Shown: in pieces, positions 13,167 through 14,009 of the stretch
Layout: the number at the start of each line of letters is the position of its first letter
Position numbering within the stretch: position 1 is the stretch's first letter
Assembly: GCA_944332475.1 (NCBI GenBank)
Contig: CALVKA010000001.1
Location: 434,001 to 498,000 of the forward strand
Source of the DNA: an uncultured Bacilli bacterium
GTDB taxonomy: Bacteria; Bacillota_I; Bacilli_A; RF39; UBA660
Length of the DNA stretch: 64,000 nucleotides
Reading direction: 5' to 3'
Notes under the pieces: model-generated
What the model was told of the DNA's origin: nothing
Seen by the model: only the letters and a program-made list of their open reading frames with translations
The model's database searches: none
Program-made: the position numbers and the translations under genes

Positions 13167-13264
13167 AATATTTCCTCCCTGTTATTATTTTAACGCAAAA
13201 TATTTATAATTTAAATGATTATTTGTGATGTTTGATTGTATTTTTTATATTATCATGTTACTAT

Positions 13265-13453
13265 TTAGGTGTAAGCAAACTTACAAAAAAAAGAAGTACT
13301 TAACTTGCACTTGTTAAGTACTTGCCTTAATTGGTTTGCACTCAACAAACTATGTTGAGTGTCTTTTTTAATACTTTGCCATAAAAATGATAGGAAGGCT
13401 AGTAATAAAAATACGATTATAAAAAGTATACAAATTATTGTATCCTTTTTCAT
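13265..13453 (-). CDS. Small membrane peptide whose ORF spans two hairpins
   Basis: 62 codons behind a strong AGGAGG ribosome binding site (GGAGGCCGATAAT before the ATG). Residues 5-25 form one hydrophobic helix, followed by a basic tail. The last third is encoded by two inverted repeats. One (13294-13323) is a good minus-strand terminator, so many transcripts would end before the TAA at 13265. The other (13339-13361) is a plus-strand terminator and implies an antisense RNA. Size, membrane helix and antisense overlap recall type I toxins; a terminator before the stop recalls arfA/brfA. It could also simply be a short non-functional gene. Confidence 0.5.
   Translation of the reverse strand: MKKDTIICILFIIVFLLLAFLSFLWQSIKKDTQHSLLSANQLRQVLNKCKLSTSFFCKFAYT
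13294..13323 (-). terminator. Minus-strand terminator inside the small ORF
   Basis: AAGTACTTAAC and GTTAAGTACTT form an 11-base perfect stem with an eight-base loop. On the minus strand it is followed by CTTTTTTTTG. It lies about 30 nt before the ORF's stop codon. Confidence 0.8.
13339..13369 (+). terminator. Plus-strand terminator antisense to the small ORF
   Basis: CACTCAACA and TGTTGAGTG form a nine-base perfect stem followed on the plus strand by TCTTTTTT. No plus-strand gene lies upstream, so the RNA it would end is non-coding and antisense. Confidence 0.7.
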
Positions 13454-13590
13454 ATTATCGGCCTCCTTTCTTTTTGAAGGCAGATACTCAACAGTTAAAT
13501 ATTTCCAAGGTGTAACTTATCATATTATGTATTTTAAGACTAATCACTGTTTTTTTAATTTTGTCTTATTATTTTTTTCTAAAGAAAAAA

Positions 13591-13616: not shown

Positions 13617-14009
13617 TTACTTTTCATCTTTAAAGTTTTTGTATGCATTATGTAGATAATAGTATGGTATTAGTAACAATAATACATTTACAATAATTAA
13701 CAAAATATTTCCATCTAAGTGGATGAAAGATAATAGTTGTGGAATAAATAGGATAATACCAAATATTACAGTAATAATTGATTTCTTCTTAGATAACAAT
13801 AGACCAAAGATTCCAGCTATTACTTGGAAAGCAGCTCCTGCGTAGGTTGCAACCAATATACCTAATGCTTCTTTTCCTGTAATTCCTGCTACTACTAAAT
13901 CTTTACTTGTTAATGATCCTACTAGAAAGTAAGTTAATGCAATTGATGCTATCCCTAAAATTATTTGGATAACACTTGCTATTCTTAAATGTTTTGTACC
14001 ACTTCTCAT
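13617..14009 (-). CDS. Small membrane protein, four helices, function unknown
   Basis: 130 residues with four hydrophobic segments and a short charged N-terminus (MRSGTKHLRIASV). The ATG at 14009 follows AGAAGGAAAAG; an upstream in-frame start at 14063 would overlap the preceding gene by 26 nt. No family recognised; the layout resembles small DUF-type membrane proteins of Bacillota. Confidence 0.6.
   Translation of the reverse strand: MRSGTKHLRIASVIQIILGIASIALTYFLVGSLTSKDLVVAGITGKEALGILVATYAGAAFQVIAGIFGLLLSKKKSIITVIFGIILFIPQLLSFIHLDGNILLIIVNVLLLLIPYYYLHNAYKNFKDEK

Follow-up and report, generated by a model that had tools for sequence, protein, structure and literature searches.

The locus between 13236 and 13547 of the window (the whole 64-kb stretch of DNA that was analysed) raises the question of how to read a small membrane-peptide gene that has one transcription terminator inside its reading frame and a second terminator facing the other way. 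The original prediction combined two answers: a transcript without a stop codon, as in arfA and brfA, and a toxin mRNA that is silenced by its own folding and by an antisense RNA. Comparison with related sequences indicates that the toxin and antisense half of this interpretation is right, whereas the arfA/brfA half arises from a frameshift. We read the locus as very probably a copy, without the normal reading frame, of a type I toxin-antitoxin module that belongs to a new family. Its parts are as follows.

13236..13264, plus strand: antisense promoter TTGTAT-17-TGT-TACTAT with an extended -10, read from the sequence and also found in the related locus L004
13265..13453, minus strand: toxin-like ORF, 62 codons in the window, with AAAGGAGG directly before the ATG and one hydrophobic stretch
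13270..13369, plus strand: predicted antisense (antitoxin) RNA of ~100 nt, with a 5' hairpin GTAAG-CAAA-CTTAC at 13271-13284, then the a-hairpin, then the b-hairpin
13284..13323, minus strand: a-hairpin and T run, the predicted toxin mRNA terminator and partner of the 5' leader; stem 13323-13294, 11 pairs in the scan
13338..13369, plus strand: b-hairpin and T run, the predicted antisense RNA terminator; stem 13338-13362, 10 pairs in the terminator scan
13461..13481, minus strand: predicted hairpin sequestering the Shine-Dalgarno sequence, GCCTTC...GGAGGC, from folding; the Shine-Dalgarno is mostly paired in the MFE folds of the family
13479..13493, minus strand: leader element b (TGTTGAGTATCTGCC), pairing partner of the terminator hairpin's 5' arm or alternatively of the 13338-13362 hairpin
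13494..13506, minus strand: leader element a (GGAAATATTTAAC), the predicted mRNA 5' end and pairing partner of the terminator hairpin's 3' arm
13519..13547, minus strand: toxin promoter, with -10 TATGAT at 13524-13519 and a weak -35 GTGATT at 13547-13542

The window copy and its closest relatives

The 62-codon ORF, its strong Shine-Dalgarno sequence and its single hydrophobic stretch were all confirmed in the window sequence. The scan recovered both predicted terminators with their T tails, the minus-strand one at 13294-13323 and the plus-strand one with its stem at 13338-13362, and the 1.6 kb covered contained two terminator-like sites compared with 0.5 (sd 0.7) in shuffles. The mRNA region of the window is more stably folded than shuffled sequences (z -5.5). 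Pairing between 13483-13493 and 13353-13363, also part of the original prediction, holds at 10 of 11 positions as claimed, but the 5' leader pairs chiefly with the 13294-13323 hairpin and not with the 13353-13363 segment. No Rfam family matched anywhere in the 64-kb window, and the 62-aa protein had no significant Pfam match.

In the same genus, L004 and L005 share the locus, between rarA and a gene for a 130-aa membrane protein, at 88-90% identity, and a third genome of the genus has a more distant copy at a different place (L006). When L006 was searched as DNA against 147 relatives, approximately 35 true homologs were obtained from many genera of the window's taxonomic family. Extraction and a second profile, including loci from named public genomes, brought the collection to 162 distinct full-length loci. 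A second BLAST match in the window genome (L002) was an unrelated gene start, and L007-L010 were chance A+T-rich matches rather than homologs. The gene for the 130-aa membrane protein (window 13617-14009, minus strand) adjoins the locus. Of 16 genomes in the genus, 3 have this gene, and they are exactly the ones with the locus at the same place.

Alignment showed that the window is without one base, near 13390-13395, that is present in both L004 and L005. Conservation of the peptide in relatives extends over the N-terminal ~20 codons of the window ORF, which correspond to the conserved membrane peptide, but not over the remainder, which is out of frame. ORFs in the relatives have 34, 28 and 27 codons, and those of the two closest end at 28 and 34. 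Among 157 homologous loci, the stop codon lies before both hairpins in 151, inside the first hairpin region in 5 and past both in a single case, the window. The window ORF runs through the hairpins because of the base missing relative to its closest relatives, and the 62-codon ORF looks like a frameshift product. The terminator placed ahead of the stop codon in the original prediction is therefore real in the window, but it results from the loss of one base that L004 and L005 have.

This result bears on the arfA/brfA-like explanation, in which a terminator within the coding region produces a non-stop mRNA and the peptide accumulates only if trans-translation fails. The window ORF indeed continues across both hairpins as far as 13265, a transcript ended at the T run would have no stop codon, and the layout is identical to that of BrfA, in which a terminator inside the coding region gives a transcript without a stop (PMC6881298). 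However, this explanation fails because the long ORF is specific to the window, one of the 157 loci. In the relatives the reading frame closes ahead of the first hairpin or at it, the tail of the window ORF is out of frame relative to every one of them, and what is conserved, a membrane helix, matched nothing in Pfam or NCBIfam. We regard a non-stop design as extremely unlikely.

A variant of the toxin-antitoxin explanation is that the frameshift is a sequencing or assembly error and that the window copy is intact. This is a real possibility, although the less likely one, as the difference is a single base in a single assembly, and the genome, in 7 contigs, may have been assembled from long reads, in which case single-base indels readily arise. 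Against an error, the leader-terminator duplex is weaker in the window (-24.0, compared with -26.7 in L005 and -29.4 in L004) and the -35 element is poor, as decay predicts. The window copy is probably best read as a decayed member of the family, and it is probably inactive as a toxin because of the C-terminal frameshift, the weakened leader-terminator pairing and the poor toxin -35.

Promoters, the predicted antisense RNA and the predicted mRNA fold

The peptides of the family are mostly 24-30 aa long, with a consensus of about MKKKDLLISFLILIIILLIVSLMILCIKK and a second type that begins MKKRxFIIKVLR. Their median hydrophobicity is 72%, and the pN/pS of 0.27-0.33 across three length classes indicates purifying selection. 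The named records that carry them are gut metagenome assemblies, mostly labelled Bacilli, Bacillales, Mycoplasma or Tenericutes, and include Candidatus Faecisoma and Candidatus Onthousia. Some loci stand in tandem arrays of two or three (L042, L157, L179, L213 and L038), and decayed copies that keep only the 3' hairpins also occur (L036, L050 and the first copy of L037).

A sigma-70 toxin promoter, TTGnnn-17-(TGn)TATAAT, precedes element a at a fixed distance in nearly every intact locus. On the other strand, the antisense promoter of the family, TTGnnn-17-TGn-TATnAT, lies at a fixed distance beyond the mRNA terminator. One hallmark of a type I system is present at the sequence level, a predicted antisense RNA that has its own promoter and terminator and overlaps the mRNA. 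In the window this overlap is at approximately 13290-13369. The antisense RNA that was predicted over the 3' end of the gene is thereby supported, with an overlap of about 75-80 nt conserved in more than 150 loci and with the promoters in place. The two separate one-way terminators, at 13284-13323 (minus) and 13338-13369 (plus) in the window, are likewise conserved in the family. As part of the antisense strand, the b-hairpin is more stable than as part of the mRNA in 146 of 153 loci (p 1.6e-25), and the a-hairpin in 107 loci against 45 (p 6.7e-11), because a common G.U pair of the antisense RNA is an A.C mismatch in the mRNA; in the window's genus both hairpins are nearly perfect on either strand, and the asymmetry is a trend of the family rather than a universal feature.

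RNAalifold, run on 29 loci, predicted unprompted that the mRNA leader (elements a and b) pairs with the whole 3' terminator hairpin and leaves out the loop, and 16 of the 36 consensus pairs contained double changes. A direct count found 95.9% of cells paired compared with 31-44% when slid. In shuffle and permutation tests, which remove shared ancestry only in part, double-change cells numbered 58 compared with 16 (sd 3), the covariation score was 0.289 compared with 0.183, the leader paired with its own terminator hairpin at a mean of -31.9 kcal/mol compared with -26.7 when permuted among 153 distinct loci (z -18.5), and in the same loci it also preferred its own b-hairpin (z -13.3). Compensatory changes recur in the separate subfamilies L029, L037, L054 and L087. 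A panhandle of at least 15 bp is present in the MFE fold of 149 of the 162 loci. As in hok- and aapA-type mRNAs, the 5' end is predicted to pair with the 3' end, and covariation is present; the folded, silenced mRNA that had been proposed for the window is a conserved feature of more than 150 loci with compensatory base changes. Pairing of the leader with the a-hairpin of the antisense RNA was dropped as a candidate, with little cognate preference (z -2.3).

These features are consistent with the following scheme. An intact member would produce a membrane peptide of 24-30 residues from an mRNA of ~225 nt. The Shine-Dalgarno sequence would first be hidden by the local hairpin, and the finished transcript would then lock itself when the 5' leader (a+b, ~26 nt) pairs with its own 3' terminator hairpin. 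The convergent RNA of ~100 nt, which matches the 3' third of the mRNA with perfect complementarity and can also pair with the leader, would prevent the mRNA from refolding or from being translated and make it a target for RNase III. Once the antisense RNA is gone, an mRNA trimmed at its 3' end would be open to translation, and the resulting peptide would harm the membrane. Removal or blocking of the mRNA by the antisense RNA and release of the toxin by 3' trimming in its absence are proposed by analogy with known systems, and transcription, toxicity, the order of the folding steps and the role of RNase III are what we infer. The layout, the promoters at fixed spacing, selection on the coding sequence, compensatory pairing and a lineage-wide multicopy distribution support the scheme at the sequence level.

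Known systems and alternative explanations

The par locus of plasmid pAD1 (RNA I/RNA II, Fst) and the chromosomal par loci have convergent promoters, an mRNA of ~230 nt that encodes a membrane peptide of ~30 residues, a small antisense RNA, repeats common to both RNAs, a Shine-Dalgarno stem-loop and a sequestered 5' end (PMC7472228). The family shares with them the convergent promoters, an mRNA of ~225 nt, the common repeats, the Shine-Dalgarno stem-loop, the sequestered 5' end and a short membrane peptide with N-terminal charges, and these similarities would fit membership in the par/Fst (Fst/Ldr) family proper. However, the family has two nested terminators, each working in one direction, where par has a single bidirectional one shared by both RNAs, its antisense RNA is ~100 nt long, and its leader complements the whole terminator hairpin. 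The Fst signature is also absent: the peptide alignment contains no conserved Trp, Pro or Gly and no PxxxG-type motif, and 27 peptides compared with the Fst models of Pfam and NCBIfam gave no match up to E = 1. Membership in Fst/Ldr is accordingly unlikely.

In aapA/IsoA of Helicobacter pylori and in hok/sok, the full-length mRNA is locked by a long-distance interaction of its 5' and 3' ends, and a local Shine-Dalgarno hairpin protects hok and aapA mRNA during transcription (PMC6733600). A locked full-length mRNA and a local Shine-Dalgarno hairpin are likewise predicted for the family, but its peptides are unrelated, its antisense RNA overlaps the 3' end of the mRNA, and it is the terminator hairpin itself that forms the locking helix with the leader. 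The convergent transcripts of txpA/ratA and bsrG/SR4 of Bacillus subtilis overlap at their 3' ends by ~75-120 nt (PMC4147584). The predicted antisense RNA of the family overlaps the 3' end of the toxin mRNA as in txpA/ratA, but TxpA has 59 aa compared with 24-30 aa for the family peptides, and no Rfam, Pfam or NCBIfam match pointed to txpA/RatA homology. We know of no leader-terminator complementarity in txpA/ratA or bsrG/SR4. By analogy, the design looks like a combination of the par/Fst layout with the locked mRNA of Hok/AapA, with the Fst signature absent. Two aspects of this RNA design are unusual: one short leader complements a whole terminator hairpin, and the sense and antisense versions of these hairpins tend to differ in stability through G.U pairs and A.C mismatches.

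The locus could also be a mobile repeat of the MITE or REP kind, with the ~26-nt inverted repeats being transposon ends and not RNA-pairing elements. The inverted repeats bound the locus, which is multicopy, sometimes tandem and found at varying genomic places; mobility of the cassette is compatible with the toxin-antitoxin reading too. However, conservation reaches past the repeats on both sides to promoters at fixed spacing, the peptide is under purifying selection, the stability of the hairpins is strand-biased, and no conserved target-site duplications were seen by eye at the repeats, which makes a simple mobile repeat very unlikely. It is less easy to dismiss a harmless regulated membrane peptide under the control of a cis-antisense RNA, since toxicity is a prediction, some copies consist of 3' parts only and some genomes do not have the locus. 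Type I toxins are usually recognized by a short hydrophobic peptide that is charged at its ends, by several layers of silencing, by a patchy distribution in multiple copies and by decayed copies, and all of these are found here, so that a harmless peptide is rather unlikely and a type I toxin-antitoxin module is preferred.

Distribution and association with tRNA genes

A model of the antisense RNA matched 210 of 291 genomes of the window's taxonomic family, with several matches per genome and a maximum of at least 12. Outside this family it matched 2 of ~340 genomes in a class-wide sample, and a phylum-wide sample gave one further, weak match. One strong locus (L097, G469:C32) lies in a genome from a different family within the class and reflects either horizontal transfer or assembly contamination. 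Searches of IMG/VR, PLSDB and phage records by DNA pattern, blastn or tblastn gave no match, Pfam, NCBIfam, PADLOC, PHROGs, Rfam and the PDB contained no relative, and a literature search for type I systems in the window's lineage found no relevant paper. An Rfam match to HPnc0260 (IsoA) in L042 (E 0.94) was mostly outside the locus and below threshold, and was rejected. From these comparisons the loci appear to form a new, undescribed family of a known kind, the type I toxin-antitoxin systems. A large and apparently undescribed family of this kind would thereby be added in an uncultured, genome-reduced gut lineage, where it is present in ~70% of the sampled genomes of the taxonomic family, often in several copies per genome of 1-1.5 Mb.

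A tRNA gene lies within 500 nt of 31 of 159 loci, compared with ~5 expected from background density. It is always on the same side, with its 3' end towards the locus and mostly ~100 nt away. The sequence just after CCA is conserved (GATTGATAGGAAACTCGAACTTTCGAGT) behind tRNA-Leu, -Arg, -Thr and -Ala and is shorter or variant after tRNA-Lys and -Phe. A 22-nt pattern for the post-CCA site occurred 59 times, in 35 of 98 genomes of the taxonomic family, and a reversed control pattern gave no occurrence. In L210, direct repeats that lie 484 bp apart (867 and 1351) flank the locus. These data suggest integration at tRNA ends, alone or within a larger element, which we take as a lead and not as a result. 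The tRNA-linked copies offer a handle on how such modules spread. More speculatively, and with considerable doubt, the family may be a mobile cassette of ~0.5 kb whose insertion at tRNA 3' ends uses an att-like repeat (CACCA-GATTGATA...) and whose only cargo is its own addiction module. The mRNA leader would in that case be a built-in copy of the antitoxin hairpin, in competition with the antitoxin itself for the mRNA 3' end.

The att-like site CACCA-GATTGATAnnnAACTCGAACTTTCGAGT is found with several tRNA species, often with a locus of the family ~107 nt further on, and it also occurs without a tRNA; examples are L210:867 and 1351, L139, L017 and G056:C1:16869. The window genome has a second full-length locus, L087 (G000:C1:315284-315401), which is of the other peptide type (MKKR...) and adjoins a GCACCAGATTGATA site without a tRNA. 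At L137:2465-4162 (minus strand), a gene for a large serine recombinase, with an HTH gene nearby, lies beside two tandem loci of the family that stand at a tRNA-Ala 3' end.
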